Shown here: positions 6,352 through 57,131 of the stretch, in pieces
How the letters are laid out: each line of letters starts with the position of its first letter
Position numbering within the stretch: position 1 is the stretch's first letter
Origin: Oceanococcus sp.
GTDB taxonomy: Bacteria; Pseudomonadota; Gammaproteobacteria; Nevskiales; Oceanococcaceae
Direction: 5' to 3'
NCBI GenBank assembly: GCA_030147945.1
Contig: JASBUL010000011.1
Location: 1 to 64,000 of the forward strand
Length of the DNA stretch: 64,000 bases
Translations under genes and position numbers: made by a program
Notes under the pieces: model-generated
What the model was told of the DNA's origin: nothing
Databases searched by the model: none
What the model saw: only the letters and a program-made list of their open reading frames with translations

Positions 6352-7793
6352 AGCTTGGACTTGAGCAGACGATTGACTTCACCGGGATTGGCCTTGCCCT
6401 TGGACAGCTTCATGACCTGCCCGACAAAGTAGCCAAACACCTTGTCCTTGCCACTGCGATATTGCTCGACCTGCGCCGGGCTGTCGGCAATCACCTGATC
6501 AACCAGCGTCTCGATCGCACCGCTGTCGGTGATCTGCTTGAGCCCACGCGCTTCGATCACGCTGTCAGCATCATCTTCGCCAGCCCACATGGCGGCGAAC
6601 ACATCCTTGGCGATCTTGCCGGACACGGTGTTGTCGAGCACCCGCTTGAGCAGTCCGGCCAGCGCATCCGGCGTCACCGCCGAGGCCGCGACATCCAGGT
6701 TGTGCTCATTCAGACTCGCGGTCAGTTCGCCCAGACACCAATTGGCCGCCAGCTTGGCGTTGTCTTCACCCAGTGCGGCAACCAACGCCTCGAAGTAGGC
6801 TGCCAGATCGCGCTCGGCGACCAGTGCATCGGCATCGTAGGCGGGCAGACCGAAGCTCGCCATGAAACGCGTGCGGCGCGCCTCGGGCAGCTCCGGCAAG
6901 ACATCGCGAATGCTGCTGACAAACGCGCCATCGCACACCACCGGCAACAGATCAGGATCGGGGAAGTAGCGATAGTCCATCGCTTCTTCCTTGCTGCGCA
7001 TGGTCCGGGTTTCGCCTTTGTCCGGATCGAACAGACGGGTTTCCTGATCCACGCTGCCACCGCTTTCGAGCACGTCGATCTGACGCTCAATCTCGAACTC
7101 GATGGCCTTCTCGACGAAACGGAAGGAGTACAGGTTCTTGGTTTCGGTACGCGTGCCGAGCTCTTCCTGCCCCACCGGCCGCACCGAGACATTGGCATCG
7201 CAGCGGAAGGAGCCTTCCTGCATGTTGCCGTCACAAATCTCCAGGTAACGCACCAGCGAATGCAACTTCTTGAGATAGGCCACCGCCTCGCCAGCGGAGC
7301 GCAGATCCGGCTCGCTGACCACCTCGATCAAGGGCGTGCCGGCGCGGTTCAGGTCAATGCCTGAGGCCGCTTCAAAACCTTCGTGCACCGACTTGCCCGC
7401 GTCCTCTTCGAGGTGGGCACGCAGAATACGGATACGCTTGCTGGTCTCGCCACCGTCCGTGCTGATGTCGAGATGGCCATGCGCCACGATCGGCAGCTCG
7501 TACTGCGAGATCTGGTAGCCCTTGGGCAGATCCGGGTAGAAATAATGCTTGCGCGCGAACACGCAGCGCTCGGCAATCTGGGCATCCACCGCCAGGCCGA
7601 ACTTGACCGCCATCTCCACCGCTTGCTGATTGAGCACCGGCAGCACGCCCGGGAAGCCCAGGTCGATCGCACAGGCCTGGCGGTTGGCCTCGGCCCCATA
7701 GGTGGTGGCCGCACCGGAAAAAATCTTGCTCTGGGTCTTGAGCTGAACATGCACTTCCAGCCCGATCACCACTTCCCAACCGGGATAACTCAT
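6348..7793 (-). CDS. gatB: Asp/Glu-tRNA amidotransferase subunit B
   Basis: The tRNA-binding kinase/transamidation subunit of GatCAB, which converts misacylated Glu-tRNA(Gln) or Asp-tRNA(Asn) to the amidated form. The 481-residue protein starts [21 protein letters not shown] and contains the family stretches [14 protein letters not shown]-like (here [15 protein letters not shown]) and [12 protein letters not shown]. The C-terminal YqeY-like domain ends [12 protein letters not shown] chose ATG at 7793, which overlaps the gatA stop as ATGA; the reading frame open upstream of it lies inside gatA and does not resemble GatB. Confidence 0.97.
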
Positions 7794-22461: not shown

Positions 22462-25400
22462 TTAGAAATCGGCGCTCACGCCGATGAAGACATAGCGACC
22501 CAAGGCATCGTAAATCTGCGGGAAGGTGTTGCCGTTACCCACAACGCCAGGCAACGGATCACCCGACCCACCGCTGATCACAGGCGGATCTTTGTCGAGC
22601 AGGTTGTTGATGCCCGCGCGGAAGCTGAAGCGATCAAACGGCACGGTGAAACCCAGGTCAAAGTAGCTGTACGACGCCAGGTGATCGTTAACCGAGGCCG
22701 GAGGCACTTCGCCCGTCTCAGGATCAGGGGTGCGATCGGACAGGCTGGCATCATCTGCCGTTACGCCACCAATATAACGCCAAGCCAGTGAGGCTTCGAT
22801 GCCGTAGTAGGGCGTCATCCAGCGGGCACGGAACTTATGCCGCCAATCCGGTTTCGGTACGCCGCATTGCAGACCGTAGCGACCATCGCAGTCATAGGTA
22901 CTGCTGCCCGGCACCGGCTCAACCACTTCCGACAGGTTGTAGGCGCCAGCGAGTTCCAGGTTCAACATACCGTAGTCGTTCAAGCTCATACGGTAGTTCA
23001 TACCCAGGTCGATACCTTTGACCTTAACCGAACCGGTATTCAGCGTCTGCACATTGACGAAACCGTTCTGCCCCAGCCACAGGCTGCCGGTGTTCGGATC
23101 ACGGCTGATCAGATCACACAGGTTGTTGTTTTCGTAGCATTCACGCAGCACGGTGTCGGCACCATAGCTGTCAATCAGACCACTCACTTCGATGTCATAG
23201 TAGTCCAGGGTCACGCTGAAGTTTTCGATGAACTCAGGGGTGTAAACGAGGCCCAGCGTGAAGGTATCCGCTTCTTCCGGCTCCAGCCCCGGCGTGGTGC
23301 CGTACAACCCGTTGTACTGACCCGCCGGATTCTGCGATACGTTGCCGTAAGCATCCGGGTTGGCCGCGAAGAACGCATCATTCTGGCACTGCTCTGCTGT
23401 GGCGGTCGGGCGGGCCGACTCGTCAGCCGCATTGGGGTCACCGGCACACGGGTCGGTGTTACCCGCCAGGTTCACCGAGATCGGCTGCGACAGTTCAATG
23501 ATGTTCGGTGCACGCACCGCACGGTTATAGCCGCCACGCACGTTGAGCTGCTCGTCGAACGCCCAGTTCAGCAGTGCTTTGTAGGTGTGCGTGGAATCAG
23601 TCGAACTGTAATCGGAGAAACGATAACCCAGTTCCAGATTCACGTCGTACATGCCGGGGCGATCCTGCAGCAGCGGGATACGCGTCTCGCCGAAGATCTC
23701 GAACAGATCGAACGCACCACCGGTACCGATCGTGGCGCCGCCCTGACCTGCCAGATCACCGGTCACGAACGACTGATCGGGATCGAAGTTGAGCTTTTCG
23801 CTACGCCGTTCAACACCGAATGCAAAGCCCACCGGGGTCGAGGCCGTCGGCAGCAGCAGGTCGTCAAAAGCACCGGAGACCGTGGCACCCAAAACGGTCT
23901 GCTCAGTCCGGCCCGCGAGCAGGCCCGGCGTCAGGATGTAGTCCAGAGCCGCCGGATCAACTTCGACACTGTCATCGAAGATGTTGTAGACCACACAATC
24001 CGGATCGCTGCCATCAACCACGCTACGGCACACGATGTTGCCTTCGTCGTCCTGAACCGCGTCAACCGCACGATTCTGGCGCGTGATCGACATGTCGTTA
24101 CGGTAGATCTGGTTGACCTTGGCGCTGGCGATCTGACCGAATATGTCATACGACCACAGGCCTTTGTACTCAAATTCGCCTTCCAGACCAAACACGCTGC
24201 GCATGCTGGTGTGGGTCAGATCGTCATCACGCGGACCACCCTCAACGTTACGACGCAGAATGAACACGTTTGCGGTGTCCGTGGGACCGTAACCCTGGTC
24301 AGTACAGAATTTCTGAACCTGATCAGCGGACAACAACGGGTTGTCGCAACGCACGGTGTCTACGGTTGCAAAAATGCCACTCGGTGCAATCACGCCATTG
24401 GTACGATCTTCGGTGAAACTGAAGTTGGCGTAAGCGAGCATCGTTTCATTGATTTCGCGCGAGAACATGGCGCCCAGCGACAGATTTTCGTTGTTACGCT
24501 GGTAGTAGTTGAACGGGGCAAAGTTGAACAGGCTGTCGCCATTCGGATCAATCAAGCTATTGCCGCCTGGCTCAAGGCTGTACAGGGTTTCGTTGCCGAA
24601 ATCTGCGTCGTAGGAGATGAAGTTCGCCGGCGCGTTGGTGAACGAGCCCAGACATGCCTGCGGGTTGCCACCCACCGAACATGCGGAATAGTCACGCTCG
24701 GACTGGCGCACAGCATTGAGTTCACGGTAGACCGCGTAGAAGGTCGAATTACCCAAACCATCGGCGGAATCCGAACCCACAATCAGGCTCAGGGTGTTGC
24801 TCTGCCCATCGGCCACAGTCGCACTCGGCTCATCAAAGCCACGAGCCCGCAGGCGATCACGCGCGGCTTGGTTGTCGTTCTCGTGGAAGTAGAAGCCGTG
24901 CTGGTAATCCAGCTGCACGCCGCTGAAGCCCTTCTTCATGATGAAGTTGACGACACCGGCCACAGCATCGGAACCGTAGACCGCGGAGGCACCGCCGGTA
25001 ACGATCTCGACGCGCTCGATTAGTGCCGCCGGGATGGTGTTCAGGTCAGGCACCGGCTCACGCGGATCACCGGAGTGCATGCGCTTGCCGTCGATCAGCA
25101 CCAGGGTACGCTCGGAACCAAGGTTGCGCAGGTTGACGGTGGCCGTACCGGTGGCGCCGTTGGACAGGTTACCGCCCTGATCCGCGAAGGCCTGCGGCAG
25201 GCTGTTGATCAGGTCTTCGACACGGATCGTACCTTGGTACTTGATCTCGGTATCGTTGACGATCGTGACAGGACTGCCGCTGGTCAGGTTGGCCTGCTTG
25301 ATACGCGAGCCGGTGACCTGAATCGCGCCCAGATCAACTGACGGATCGTTCTCCGATTCCATCGCCTCGACGGCGGCATCCGAGGACTCCAGATCAATCT

Positions 25401-25503
25401 GCTCGACGTCCTGTGCGAAAACGGGCGCAGCCAGCGTCAGCGCTGCAACCCCCCAAATAGCGGATAGCGGCGAGCCAATCGTCGCCGACCTTATCTTGAT
25501 CAT
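22462..25503 (-). CDS. Large TonB-dependent outer-membrane receptor
   Basis: Outer-membrane active transporter of 1013 residues. It has a signal peptide (ending VFAQ), a short acidic segment, a TonB-box-like IQVTGSRIK, the plug domain (INSLPQAFADQGG, ERTLVLIDGKRM, GGASAVYGSDAVAGVVNFIMKKG) and a long 22-strand barrel ending in an aromatic-rich C-terminus (GRYVFIGVSADF). This group of receptors is expanded in sphingomonads, caulobacters and xanthomonads; substrates include peptides, glycans and vitamins and cannot be told here. The ATG at 25503 follows GGGGAAC; an upstream TTG is less likely. No N-terminal signalling (STN) domain is present. Confidence 0.95.
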   Translation of the reverse strand: MIKIRSATIGSPLSAIWGVAALTLAAPVFAQDVEQIDLESSDAAVEAMESENDPSVDLGAIQVTGSRIKQANLTSGSPVTIVNDTEIKYQGTIRVEDLINSLPQAFADQGGNLSNGATGTATVNLRNLGSERTLVLIDGKRMHSGDPREPVPDLNTIPAALIERVEIVTGGASAVYGSDAVAGVVNFIMKKGFSGVQLDYQHGFYFHENDNQAARDRLRARGFDEPSATVADGQSNTLSLIVGSDSADGLGNSTFYAVYRELNAVRQSERDYSACSVGGNPQACLGSFTNAPANFISYDADFGNETLYSLEPGGNSLIDPNGDSLFNFAPFNYYQRNNENLSLGAMFSREINETMLAYANFSFTEDRTNGVIAPSGIFATVDTVRCDNPLLSADQVQKFCTDQGYGPTDTANVFILRRNVEGGPRDDDLTHTSMRSVFGLEGEFEYKGLWSYDIFGQIASAKVNQIYRNDMSITRQNRAVDAVQDDEGNIVCRSVVDGSDPDCVVYNIFDDSVEVDPAALDYILTPGLLAGRTEQTVLGATVSGAFDDLLLPTASTPVGFAFGVERRSEKLNFDPDQSFVTGDLAGQGGATIGTGGAFDLFEIFGETRIPLLQDRPGMYDVNLELGYRFSDYSSTDSTHTYKALLNWAFDEQLNVRGGYNRAVRAPNIIELSQPISVNLAGNTDPCAGDPNAADESARPTATAEQCQNDAFFAANPDAYGNVSQNPAGQYNGLYGTTPGLEPEEADTFTLGLVYTPEFIENFSVTLDYYDIEVSGLIDSYGADTVLRECYENNNLCDLISRDPNTGSLWLGQNGFVNVQTLNTGSVKVKGIDLGMNYRMSLNDYGMLNLELAGAYNLSEVVEPVPGSSTYDCDGRYGLQCGVPKPDWRHKFRARWMTPYYGIEASLAWRYIGGVTADDASLSDRTPDPETGEVPPASVNDHLASYSYFDLGFTVPFDRFSFRAGINNLLDKDPPVISGGSGDPLPGVVGNGNTFPQIYDALGRYVFIGVSADF

Positions 25504-25741
25504 TCCGAAGTTCCCCAAAACTCTAGATGGATACGTCAGTTGTTATCTGACTTGGGAGCAAAGCTACCGCATCTCGGTACAAATTGAAATGCACAACTGC
25601 ATAACACTCAGAAATACGGCACCCGGCAGCAGACACGTATACCTCTTCAATGTGGTTCCACTCCAAAGCCAATTTCGTGCCAAGCGCTATCAAAGCTGAC
25701 TTTGCTGATGCATCCGTGGGTATCAACACCTTCCGCCGCCC

Positions 25742-25792: not shown

Positions 25793-28700
25793 TTAGAACT
25801 TGTAGGACACCTTGGCGTACAACACGCGACCACGGGGATCCGCGTAACGCAGGTCGTAACCCACCGGGTGACCGGCGTCGATGGCCAGAGTCAGAGGCGG
25901 ATCTTCGTCCAACAGGTTCAGCACACCGGCGGAGACCGATACCGCATCCGTGGCATCCCAGTAGGTCTGGAGATCCCAGGTGATGTAACGATCGACATCC
26001 AGACGAATCGTGTCACCTGACGACGCCCCACCCAGAACCGGCTCACCCGAGGCATCCAGTTCGAAGACATAGTCGTCGACGTACTGCTCTGCATCGGAGT
26101 AACCGCTGGTGAAGTTCATGGTCAGGCTGTGGCGCCAGTCGCCCATCTCTATGGAGTTGATCCAACGCGCTTTCAGACGGAAGGTAACGCTACCCAATTC
26201 ATCCGAGTAGTCACCGACCAGATCGTAGGTTTCACCCAGAATTTCGATGTCGCGGGTCAGGAACAAGGTTCCAACCAGCTGAGAACCGAACTTTCCGACC
26301 GGCGTGTTCAAGGTCAGCTGACCGTCGAAATCGATACCTTCAGCCTTCTCTTTACCCAGGTTCACGTTGCCCTGAATGTAAGCGAGGAAGTTACGCCCGG
26401 TACCCGGATCGATCGCGGTGGTCCAGGAACCCGGATAGCGCAGCGGATTACCAAAGGCTTCACCTTCGGAAATCTGGCCAAACGCATCGTCGATCTCCAC
26501 ATTCCAGTAGTCAACGCTCAACGACACCGCCGGATCCATGTCAGCCAGCAGACCGAAGGTCGGCAGCTCAGCCACGAAACCAATCGAGTATTGATCAGAT
26601 TCCTCTGGCGTCAGCGCTTGGTTACCGCCAGCAAAGACATCGTATTGCGAGTTACCCGGACGACATTCGCCACCCACGGCATTTGCAATCTGCTGCAGGT
26701 CAGCCGTACACGGATAGCCTGCGGCGGTCACACCGTAGGTTTGCTGCGACGCATTCAGCTGCGGAACCGTCGGTGCCTTGAAGCCAGTACCGAACGATGC
26801 GCGAGCCAACAGACCCGGCATTGGTGTCCAACGCACACTGAACTTGTGATTGGTGGTGTCACCAACATCCGAATAATCGTCGTAACGCAGCGAACCAACC
26901 AGCTCCAGCGAATCGCCGATCATCACACCCACTTCGGTGAAGATGCCCAGCAGGTCACGATCGGCGCTGTAAGGAATGAACGCGGCAGCATCACCAAAGC
27001 GCTGATCACCGGTGCCCGGACCACCCGCTGCCGGCGTGCCGGCCACAGGATCATCCAGGTTGGCCTGGGCGAATTCACTCGGCTTGGACTGGAACTCTTC
27101 ATTCTGCCAGGTTGCGCCGACAGCGATGTTGACCACATTGGCGTCACCGAACTCGAACAACTCACGTGAACCCTGAGCACTCAAGGTATTCAGGGTTGAC
27201 GTACCACCGTCCCAGTATCCGTTGTAATTAATCGCGTTGAGAGCGGCCTGACCTTCAGCGGACTGTTGACCTGGGCCGACGAAGGGATCCAGCAACCCCG
27301 CACCCAACAGGCCAACAAAGGCCGCCGTGCCTGGATAACCGGAGATGTCACCCTTCACGTCACTTTCCGACTGCGTCAGAGCGACGTTGTAGTCCCAACC
27401 CGCGGCGAAGCCTTCCAAACCAAGAACGGCCTGGTAGAACGTGTTGGTGTCCATGGTACGGCGGTTACCCAGATCGAACACACGATAGAGAATGAATGCA
27501 TCTTCACCATCGGGCACAACCTGAACACCATCCGGGCCATTCAAGCCGGGGAAGTATTGGTTCCAGAGATCTGTTCCGGCTTCAATCAGGAACGAGCCCG
27601 GTACCGGTGCAATCGCGGATTCCTGTTCGGAACGCGAGTACAACAGATCAGCAAACAGATTGTGATCTTCGGCCAGCTTCATGTTGAAGGAAACAATTCC
27701 GGTCTGACGTTCGCGCTTCGGATAGATTTCCAGCGTCTGCACGTAGTCGTAACCGCAGGCGAAGTCACCCCAGTAAGGCGAGTATCCGGTTGCTCCCTCG
27801 CAAGACTGGCCTTGCAGCAAGGGTATCGAAGCCACCTGCCCATCCAGCACGCTGTTGGGATTATCGACCAGGATATTGCCCGGGATCGGAGACGGCGAAT
27901 CGTTGATGAAGCGGTAGTTGTAACCGTTCGCACTGAAATCCACGAAGCCCGACTCAGCAAAGCTGCGATCCGTGGACTTGAGCTTGTCGCGCGAATCTGC
28001 AGACACGGTCATGAACACGTTCCAGCCGTCCTTGTCGTAGTCACCGAAGCCCTTCGACAGACTCACGCCCCACTCCTGCGCACCATCAGCAGGACTGTAG
28101 TACGAGAAGCTGAGATCACCTTCTGTGGTGGAATCTTTGGTGATGAAGTTGACCACACCCGCCACAGCATCAGAACCGTAGATTGCGGACGCGCCGTCCT
28201 TCAGGATTTCGACGCGCTCAATCGCGGCAATGGGCAGACTGTTGATGTCCATCGCTGCACCGAAACCGGTCAGCGTTTGGCCACCGAACTGCGCCATGCG
28301 ACGACCGTTGAGCAGAACCAGCGTACGCGTTTCGCCGATGTCATGGATGGACACGCCAGCGAAACCGTAGGTCGAACCACCAACGGCTTCGGCCTCGGCA
28401 ACACCACCCTGAATGACGGGAAGTTTCTGCAGCAGGTCGACCACCGAGCTCGCACCGGTGCGATCAATCGCAGCGCGGTCAATCACTTGGACCGGCAGCG
28501 GACCTTCACCCGCGATGCGACGAATCGCAGAACCCGTCACCAGAACCTTGCTCAGCTGAGTGGCGTCGTCGGACGACGCGCTCGCGGCAGGAGCAGGCGC
28601 GGGAGCCGGAGCTTGCGCGACTGGGGCCGGCGCCGGCTCCGGGGCCACCATCGGAGCGGGCGCAGGGGCCGGAACGGGTTCCGGAGCTGCAACCATTTCT

Positions 28701-28984
28701 TTGGTGACGTTCAGATACTTCTGCTTCAAGTAGCCCTCAGAGCCACCCGCCGTACGAATCCGTACGAACTCGCCGTCGTAATCAAGGATATCTACTTCCT
28801 GCCCTGCGGACAGAGTTGTGACAATCGGAAAATCCGTTCCCATGCCATCACGAACGTTAATCCGAATTTTGGCCTCACCGGTGTCAGCGATTGCAGCGCC
28901 GCTGAAGCCGATGGTCGTCGCAGTTGCGAGTACAGCCAGGGTACGTAAGCCGAAAGGCAAACGCTTGTCCTTTGCTTCCCTCAT
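25793..28984 (-). CDS. TonB-dependent receptor with N-terminal bacterial SH3 domain
   Basis: A 1063-residue outer-membrane receptor with an unusual front end. After the signal peptide (cleavage near AAIA, residue 33) comes a bacterial SH3 (SH3_3/SH3b) domain at about 37-93, with INVRDGMGTDFPIVTTLSAG and EGYLKQKYLNV, then a Pro/Ala-rich linker (about 98-137). The TonB-box-like LVTGSAIRR, a normal plug (LLQKLPVIQGG, GASAIYGSDAVAGVVNFITK) and the barrel follow, ending RVLYAKVSYKF. SH3b domains commonly bind cell-wall peptides, so the extension might tether the receptor to peptidoglycan. The ATG at 28984 has GGGGAG upstream; an ATG 12 codons earlier is the alternative. Confidence 0.93.
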   Translation of the reverse strand: MREAKDKRLPFGLRTLAVLATATTIGFSGAAIADTGEAKIRINVRDGMGTDFPIVTTLSAGQEVDILDYDGEFVRIRTAGGSEGYLKQKYLNVTKEMVAAPEPVPAPAPAPMVAPEPAPAPVAQAPAPAPAPAASASSDDATQLSKVLVTGSAIRRIAGEGPLPVQVIDRAAIDRTGASSVVDLLQKLPVIQGGVAEAEAVGGSTYGFAGVSIHDIGETRTLVLLNGRRMAQFGGQTLTGFGAAMDINSLPIAAIERVEILKDGASAIYGSDAVAGVVNFITKDSTTEGDLSFSYYSPADGAQEWGVSLSKGFGDYDKDGWNVFMTVSADSRDKLKSTDRSFAESGFVDFSANGYNYRFINDSPSPIPGNILVDNPNSVLDGQVASIPLLQGQSCEGATGYSPYWGDFACGYDYVQTLEIYPKRERQTGIVSFNMKLAEDHNLFADLLYSRSEQESAIAPVPGSFLIEAGTDLWNQYFPGLNGPDGVQVVPDGEDAFILYRVFDLGNRRTMDTNTFYQAVLGLEGFAAGWDYNVALTQSESDVKGDISGYPGTAAFVGLLGAGLLDPFVGPGQQSAEGQAALNAINYNGYWDGGTSTLNTLSAQGSRELFEFGDANVVNIAVGATWQNEEFQSKPSEFAQANLDDPVAGTPAAGGPGTGDQRFGDAAAFIPYSADRDLLGIFTEVGVMIGDSLELVGSLRYDDYSDVGDTTNHKFSVRWTPMPGLLARASFGTGFKAPTVPQLNASQQTYGVTAAGYPCTADLQQIANAVGGECRPGNSQYDVFAGGNQALTPEESDQYSIGFVAELPTFGLLADMDPAVSLSVDYWNVEIDDAFGQISEGEAFGNPLRYPGSWTTAIDPGTGRNFLAYIQGNVNLGKEKAEGIDFDGQLTLNTPVGKFGSQLVGTLFLTRDIEILGETYDLVGDYSDELGSVTFRLKARWINSIEMGDWRHSLTMNFTSGYSDAEQYVDDYVFELDASGEPVLGGASSGDTIRLDVDRYITWDLQTYWDATDAVSVSAGVLNLLDEDPPLTLAIDAGHPVGYDLRYADPRGRVLYAKVSYKF

Positions 28985-29014
28985 CTCAGTTAACTCCCCA
29001 GTTAAAGGTATGCC

Positions 29015-56720: not shown

Positions 56721-56743
56721 GCCAGGACAAAACCATCAGGCAC

Positions 56744-56770
56744 AAAAAAGGCCAGCAATCTGCTGGCCTT
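56744..56770 (-). terminator. Intrinsic terminator of the cold-shock gene
   Basis: A perfect 10-bp stem AAGGCCAGCA / TGCTGGCCTT (56748-56757 and 56761-56770) with a 3-base loop; on the minus strand it is followed by six T (56749-56744, partly in the stem). It lies between the convergent symporter and cold-shock genes and probably serves the latter. Confidence 0.85.
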
Positions 56771-56789
56771 CGAATATTCTTGGCGCGCT

Positions 56790-57002
56790 TTACAGCGGGC
56801 GGATTGCAGCAGCCTGCAGGCCCTTGGGACCTTCTTTGACTTCGAACTGCACTTGCTGGCCTTCTTTCAGGGTACGGAAACCGCCCCCTTCGATGGCACG
56901 GTAATGGGCGAACAGATCTTCACCACCGTTAGCTGGCGTGATGAACCCGAAACCTTTGGCTTCATTGAACCATTTGACCGTACCGGTCGCTACTTCAGAC
57001 AT
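56790..57002 (-). CDS. Cold-shock domain protein
   Basis: A 70-residue CspA-family single-stranded RNA/DNA-binding protein, full family length. RNP1 is KGFGFI (16-21). RNP2 reads DLFAHY (29-34) where most family members have VFVHF, so two aromatic-patch neighbours differ. ATG at 57002 has GGAAG five bases upstream. The frame is open 43 codons further upstream but that region is AT-rich with runs of T and A and is better read as a long untranslated leader, as usual in csp genes. Confidence 0.95.
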
Positions 57003-57131
57003 TGAAACTTCCAAATAAAAACGAAAAATTACGAAGACCACCCGGCCTTCGTTAAAGAAGCGCATAGCGCCTCTCACAGCACCATAGAGTAAATTTGCTG
57101 CCAAGTCGACAATTTTTACGACACCCGGCAA
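57003..57131 (-). promoter_or_regulatory. Probable long 5' leader of the cold-shock gene
   Basis: About 130 bases upstream of the ATG are notably AT-richer than the rest of the window on the minus strand and contain short T and A runs. csp genes in proteobacteria typically have a 100-160 base structured leader that controls translation with temperature. No cold-box motif was identified; this is position and composition only. Confidence 0.4.

Follow-up and report, generated by a model that had tools for sequence, protein, structure and literature searches.

The window analyzed here is a 64,000-nucleotide stretch of an Oceanococcus contig (JASBUL010000011.1, assembly GCA_030147945.1), and it carries on its reverse strand a gene coding for a TonB-dependent receptor that has a bacterial SH3 domain at its N-terminus (Table 1). 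Plug (PF07715) and barrel (PF00593) matches both score above the curated Pfam cut-offs in the one protein, identifying it as a TonB-dependent receptor, and the SH3_3 domain (PF08239) scores 40.2 bits against a gathering cut-off of 27. A first-pass annotation, made from the sequence alone, had proposed an SH3 domain at residues 37-93 and a Pro/Ala-rich linker between the signal peptide and the plug. These proposals are borne out by an SH3_3 match above the Pfam cut-off (E 3.8e-10) and by the presence of proline or alanine at 30 of the 41 positions in the linker, and the order of signal peptide, SH3, linker, Plug and barrel is the same in all four Oceanococcaceae genomes. Pfam searches with the receptor gave no match to STN (PF07660) or AMIN (PF11741) at E <= 1 and no match to SLH, and the barrel is of the TonB-receptor type rather than a porin. 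The receptor reaches no equivalog cut-off in NCBIfam; against TIGR04211, which describes an SH3 domain followed by a coiled region and an anchor, it scores 40.2 bits, below the curated 65, and matches with its SH3 part only. A VTGS-containing, TonB-box-like stretch ahead of the plug aligns with other receptors; TonB boxes have no strict consensus.

Sequence searches with a profile of the four family heads find SH3b domains of known structure (2kq8 at E 8.5e-8 and 2kt8 at E 5.8e-5). The head contains no tryptophan, and the usual aromatic positions are occupied by F and Y. The structure prediction that the first-pass annotation had recommended gave a single-sequence AlphaFold model of residues 34-144 with five strands but of low confidence (pLDDT 67), and we claim nothing from it; with this low-confidence model Foldseek returned nothing significant, and the best VIA-align score (Z 5.8) was to an unrelated small beta fold.

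Comparison with the receptor gene of a congeneric genome gives a dN of 0.058 and a dS of 1.26 for the SH3 codons, the latter being near saturation, and a dN of 0.17 for the linker codons. The SH3 domain and linker are thus translated together with the receptor, with strong purifying selection acting on the SH3 codons. The suggestion that the true start might lie after the linker fails in the face of this codon-level constraint, the GGGGAG sequence preceding the ATG at 28984, and the signal peptide; a wrong start or other artefact is ruled out by the constraint, the ribosome-binding site and the recurrence of the architecture in four separate genomes. A sigma-70-like promoter was looked for and none was found, and Rfam searches revealed no RNA element at the receptor gene. 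Elsewhere in the window, Rfam reports a match to the cspA thermoregulator at 56743-57076 (-) with 80.3 bits, just over the gathering score of 78.

Table 1. Features of the SH3-headed receptor gene (window coordinates) and of the small SH3 proteins in genomes of the order (coordinates within each locus).
Feature	Position	Strand	Basis
SH3-headed TonB-dependent receptor, 1063 aa	25793..28984	-	ORF translation and Pfam
GGGGAG, ribosome-binding-site-like, nine bases 5' of ATG	28994..28999	-	Direct reading
Putative signal peptide, residues 1-33, cleavage AIA|D	28886..28984	-	Direct reading
SH3_3, residues 42-91	28712..28861	-	Pfam E 3.8e-10; solved SH3b relatives
Whole SH3 domain, about residues 37-93	28706-28876	-	
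Pro/Ala-rich linker, residues 97-137	28574..28694	-	Direct count
TonB-box-like stretch KVLVTG, residues 145-150	28535..28552	-	Alignment with receptors sharing VTGS
Plug, residues 161-277	28154..28504	-	Pfam E 4.8e-21
Beta-barrel, residues 286-1063 (Pfam 494-1024)	25796..28129	-	Pfam E 1.2e-28
Head/body junction, end of linker	28540..28590	.	DNA similarity to congeneric gene stops
Probable allele-exchange breakpoint near codon 10	28954..28958	.	DNA comparison with congeneric genome
Small SH3 protein, one or two SH3 copies	L062 1267-2400	+	No strong Pfam match in barrel part
Small SH3 protein, one or two SH3 copies	L063 763-2064	-	No strong Pfam match in barrel part
Small SH3 protein, one or two SH3 copies	L064 766-1890	-	No strong Pfam match in barrel part
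Small SH3 protein, one or two SH3 copies	L065 766-1920	-	No strong Pfam match in barrel part
Small SH3 protein, one or two SH3 copies	L066 1063-2298	-	No strong Pfam match in barrel part
Small SH3 protein, one or two SH3 copies	L067 1251-2255	+	No strong Pfam match in barrel part
Small SH3 protein, one or two SH3 copies	L068 1516-2805	+	No strong Pfam match in barrel part

Exactly one SH3-headed receptor is present in each of the four family genomes, where it is the only one so equipped among 18-29 Plug matches per genome. The window's genome (G000) and G003 belong to one genus and form a congeneric pair, and G001 and G002 belong to a second genus. Because all four genomes contain one such receptor and the head is under purifying selection, the architecture is not an artefact. 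The assembly containing the window is in 133 contigs (93.5% complete, 3% contamination), and a chimeric contig cannot account for three other genomes that share the architecture but have different bodies. Among the matches listed for 85 genomes of the order, the four family receptors are the only frames of more than 700 residues with SH3_3, and no SH3-receptor is among those listed for the other 81 genomes. A profile of the head searched against 369 genomes of the class finds nothing outside the family except frames of 199-338 residues and a 616-residue frame in which the match begins at residue 429; in 398 genomes of the phylum it matches only frames of 216-253 residues. With a profile of head plus plug, no other receptor with a full SH3 part in the match was found in 350 genomes of the class. 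A match in genome G072 that starts at residue 2 turned out to be an Ala/Pro-rich N-terminus lacking SH3. Searches with the receptor gave one distant receptor only in a genome-contig collection (from Ferrimonas, 27%, with the match starting past the SH3), none in a viral-contig collection, and matches confined to the plug in a plasmid collection; the receptor body has no close relative in the class sample at E <= 1e-90. A survey of 34,893 TonB transporters using Pfam 31 describes five N-terminal architectures – none, CarboxypepD_reg types, STN, AMIN, and combinations – and SH3 is not among them (PMC6434023). The searches of the class and phylum are of samples, and rare SH3-receptors may occur elsewhere. 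The first-pass annotation knew of no described receptor of this kind, and its rarity is supported by both the genome samples and the survey; the architecture is real and, as far as could be found within the survey and samples examined, undescribed.

The head and body of the receptor differ sharply in their conservation within the congeneric pair. The G000 and G003 proteins are 89% identical in SH3 and 80% in the linker, falling to 44% in the plug and 25% in the barrel. Their overall identity is 35%; for 20 other ortholog or best-match receptor pairs from the same two genomes it ranges from 51 to 99% and exceeds 90% in 14. Except for one extra gene in G003, the locus is collinear to either side of the receptor gene, and the neighbouring proteins are closely similar (epimerase, 99%; a second receptor, 97%). 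This second TonB receptor lacks SH3 and lies directly downstream on the same strand (22462-25518, -). The extra G003 gene codes for a transglutaminase/TPR protein (L016 255-1436, +), lies between the two receptor genes, and is missing at this place in the window.

At the DNA level the flank upstream of the receptor gene is about 97% identical to G003 as far as coordinate 35123, and the downstream flank is 71-94% identical. About 300 bp of complete identity lie 5' of a probable breakpoint and extend to about codon 10, after which identity is about 70-78% across the signal peptide and SH3 and is then lost at the end of the linker. Throughout the segment 17101-35123, divergence from G003 shifts sharply at the receptor gene, with about 97% identity on the high-coordinate side and mostly 80-90% on the low-coordinate side. 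The head could be kept for a mundane cause involving no partner at all, such as export, folding, BAM assembly, or provision of a shared 5' end for recombination; the congeneric alleles are indeed alike at the 5' end, and exchange via shared ends would preserve it. However, the breakpoint of the last exchange near codon 10 is ahead of the SH3, which is therefore unneeded as a shared arm, the low dN relative to dS indicates protein-level constraint on a folded domain, and some 20 further receptors in the genome manage without a head. We consider this explanation to be improbable.

The second genus has the receptor at one locus shared by G001 and G002, divergent from dgt and gltB, and the neighbours of the receptor gene are quite different sets in the two genera. 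The G001 and G002 receptors are 60% identical in SH3 and 27% in the barrel, and the heads of all four family receptors are 46-89% identical, or 46-60% outside of the congeneric pair. In a maximum-likelihood tree of 41 receptor bodies the four SH3-headed bodies are on separate branches, and the well-supported branches force four label changes; the G002 body groups with L053, a receptor from another family that has no SH3 head. Placing the four bodies in one clade is rejected (AU p 7e-13), as is a single clade of the two bodies of the congeneric pair (AU p 4e-38). How many exchanges took place is uncertain, because the sequences in this tree were picked by similarity to the window receptor and it has several long branches. 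The SH3 domain is short and its tree poorly resolved; in it G000 pairs with G003 and G001 with G002, matching the genera, and a single clade of receptor heads is not rejected (p 0.53). These data firmly establish that more than one body lineage lies behind the SH3 heads. The histories of head and body differ, and the simplest reading is that the head has been retained and the receptor body exchanged. Body exchange behind a conserved head is a new point that goes beyond the first-pass annotation, and is more surprising than the architecture itself.

Seven further proteins, 335-434 residues long and encoded in genomes of the order, are also matched by the head profile. Each has SH3 and a C-terminal part of about 185 residues, in most cases with a Pro/Ala-rich linker between them; one, in the window's genus, has two SH3 domains. 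OMP_b-brl families match their C-terminal parts weakly (best E 3e-4), the terminal strands are typical of such barrels, and these small proteins are probably outer-membrane barrels. PDB profile matches of the small proteins to xylanases were judged to be chance. In the SH3 tree the small-protein and receptor heads are together, apart from the YgiM-type domains (88/83 support), and an SH3 head on outer-membrane barrels probably recurs in the order with two types of barrel. The window's genome also contains a 344-residue frame (L089, G000:C21, SH3 at 6552-6716) in which SH3_3 is C-terminal and there is no obvious signal peptide.

The best explanation we can offer is that the SH3 head serves as a periplasmic anchor or dock independent of the cargo, with peptidoglycan as the most likely target, and that the body is exchanged behind it; judged from sequence, we see the case for this as evenly balanced. 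The protein would be an outer-membrane TonB-dependent importer whose N-terminus is predicted to face the periplasm, with a single SH3b on a flexible Pro/Ala stalk just ahead of the TonB box. The head would dock the receptor to a fixed periplasmic target, foremost the stem peptides of peptidoglycan, in a manner akin to the SLH stalk of OmpM or the AMIN domains of PilQ. The spacing from SH3 to TonB box is about 50-66 residues across the four proteins, and such a stalk when fully extended would span roughly 15-20 nm (our own estimate, at 0.31 nm per residue), long enough to reach the wall with the TonB box still accessible to TonB. The body would be swapped by recombination, presumably under changing substrate, phage or bacteriocin pressure, and the head would be kept through the exchange because its docking target is independent of the cargo. 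Three features favour a periplasmic target of this type: where the head sits, how it is conserved with different bodies, and its recurrence on other barrels.

Many SH3b domains are wall-binding modules. Peptidoglycan is also suggested as the likeliest target by the Gram-negative lipoprotein TagV, for whose SH3b wall binding has been proposed (PMC7614798), by the AMIN domains of PilQ, which sediment with peptidoglycan (PMC5285504), and by OmpM, in which an N-terminal wall-binding domain is followed by a linker and an outer-membrane barrel (PMC10628300); AMIN-headed TonB receptors exist as well (PMC6434023). The first-pass annotation had suggested a possible tether to peptidoglycan. Tethering or docking at the wall is a plausible role and the best fit, and it is strengthened by the presence of the same SH3 subfamily on small probable barrels and the retention of the head with different bodies. 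Wall binding itself is something that we infer from the sequence, and is weakened by the missing tryptophan, a conserved residue on which ligand binding depends in some of the SH3b domains that have been studied (PMC7614798). Binding of the wall by a single SH3b could be weak, and the ligands of SH3_3 domains could vary.

Outside the congeneric pair the heads share only 46-60% identity, which leaves room for a specific protein partner. The main rival to wall docking is that the head binds a periplasmic protein – TonB, ExbD, a substrate-binding protein or a lipoprotein – and recruits the energy or uptake machinery to any body. The head adjoins the TonB box, and its retention with different bodies is what one would expect of a shared partner. 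About 70 residues of TonB form a Pro-rich segment with polyproline II structure (PMC10771500), a kind of peptide that SH3 folds can bind. However, the small probable barrels with the same head subfamily would have no use for TonB, and a head on just one of about 20 receptors per genome must be unnecessary for TonB coupling. Binding of PxxP peptides is not known as a general property of bacterial SH3_3 domains, which also counts against TonB as the partner. We regard a protein partner as unlikely, although less so than a mundane cause.

The first-pass annotation had raised a second role for the domain, as a reporter of wall state or TonB-system state. The head would then act in place of STN, signalling receptor occupancy or wall state to an inner-membrane regulator, and it does sit where STN sits, ahead of the TonB box and joined by a flexible linker (PMC11658791). 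STN-type signalling nonetheless finds no support: the receptor has no STN match in Pfam, the neighbouring genes examined in the window include no FecI/FecR-like sigma/anti-sigma pair, nor do the open frames beside the second-genus loci, and the receptor genes of the two genera have quite different neighbours. We consider it the least probable of these explanations.

Wall docking can be extended to a more general proposal, that the SH3-linker head is a cargo-independent docking cassette on outer-membrane barrels of the Nevskiales. In the Oceanococcaceae it would stay at a fixed locus in each genus as whole bodies from different receptor lineages are exchanged, and in relatives it would sit on small barrels. 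We offer this as a tentative proposal that may well not hold in all its parts. If true, the cassette would tether particular transporters to the wall and set where or how they meet the Ton motor; ExbD binds peptidoglycan, and the part played by the wall in the Ton motor is still being worked out (PMC10771500). The combination of one periplasmic head with several receptor bodies is a natural experiment, making testable both the tie of a transporter to peptidoglycan and the effect of this tie on TonB-driven uptake.

The SH3 head would constitute a sixth N-terminal architecture of TonB-dependent receptors, and has parallels in several known systems. AMIN-headed TonB transporters (PMC6434023) likewise have a domain of a potentially peptidoglycan-binding class N-terminal to plug and barrel, but AMIN is unrelated to SH3_3 and has no match in the window receptor. 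The STN-headed transducers FecA, FpvA, FoxA and PupB also have a small periplasmic domain and a flexible linker ahead of the TonB box, whereas the window receptor has no STN match, no adjacent sigma/anti-sigma genes were found, and its linker is Pro/Ala-rich and about 50 residues long. In the Gram-negative envelope, TagV (PMC7614798) and the YgiM/TIGR04211 proteins likewise have a single SH3b-type domain close to the N-terminus; however, TagV is a lipoprotein, the short TIGR04211 proteins carry a C-terminal anchor, neither kind is a transporter, and the SH3 of the window receptor is in a different subfamily from this group (88/83 support). OmpM of diderm Firmicutes (PMC10628300) likewise joins an N-terminal domain of wall-binding type through a linker to an outer-membrane barrel, although it is built from SLH, a coiled-coil stalk and a trimeric porin, whereas the window protein has SH3b, a disordered Pro/Ala stalk and a TonB receptor. 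Wall binding has been shown for OmpM and we infer it for the window receptor, and the principle that the two would share is the combination of a tether and a nutrient channel in one protein.
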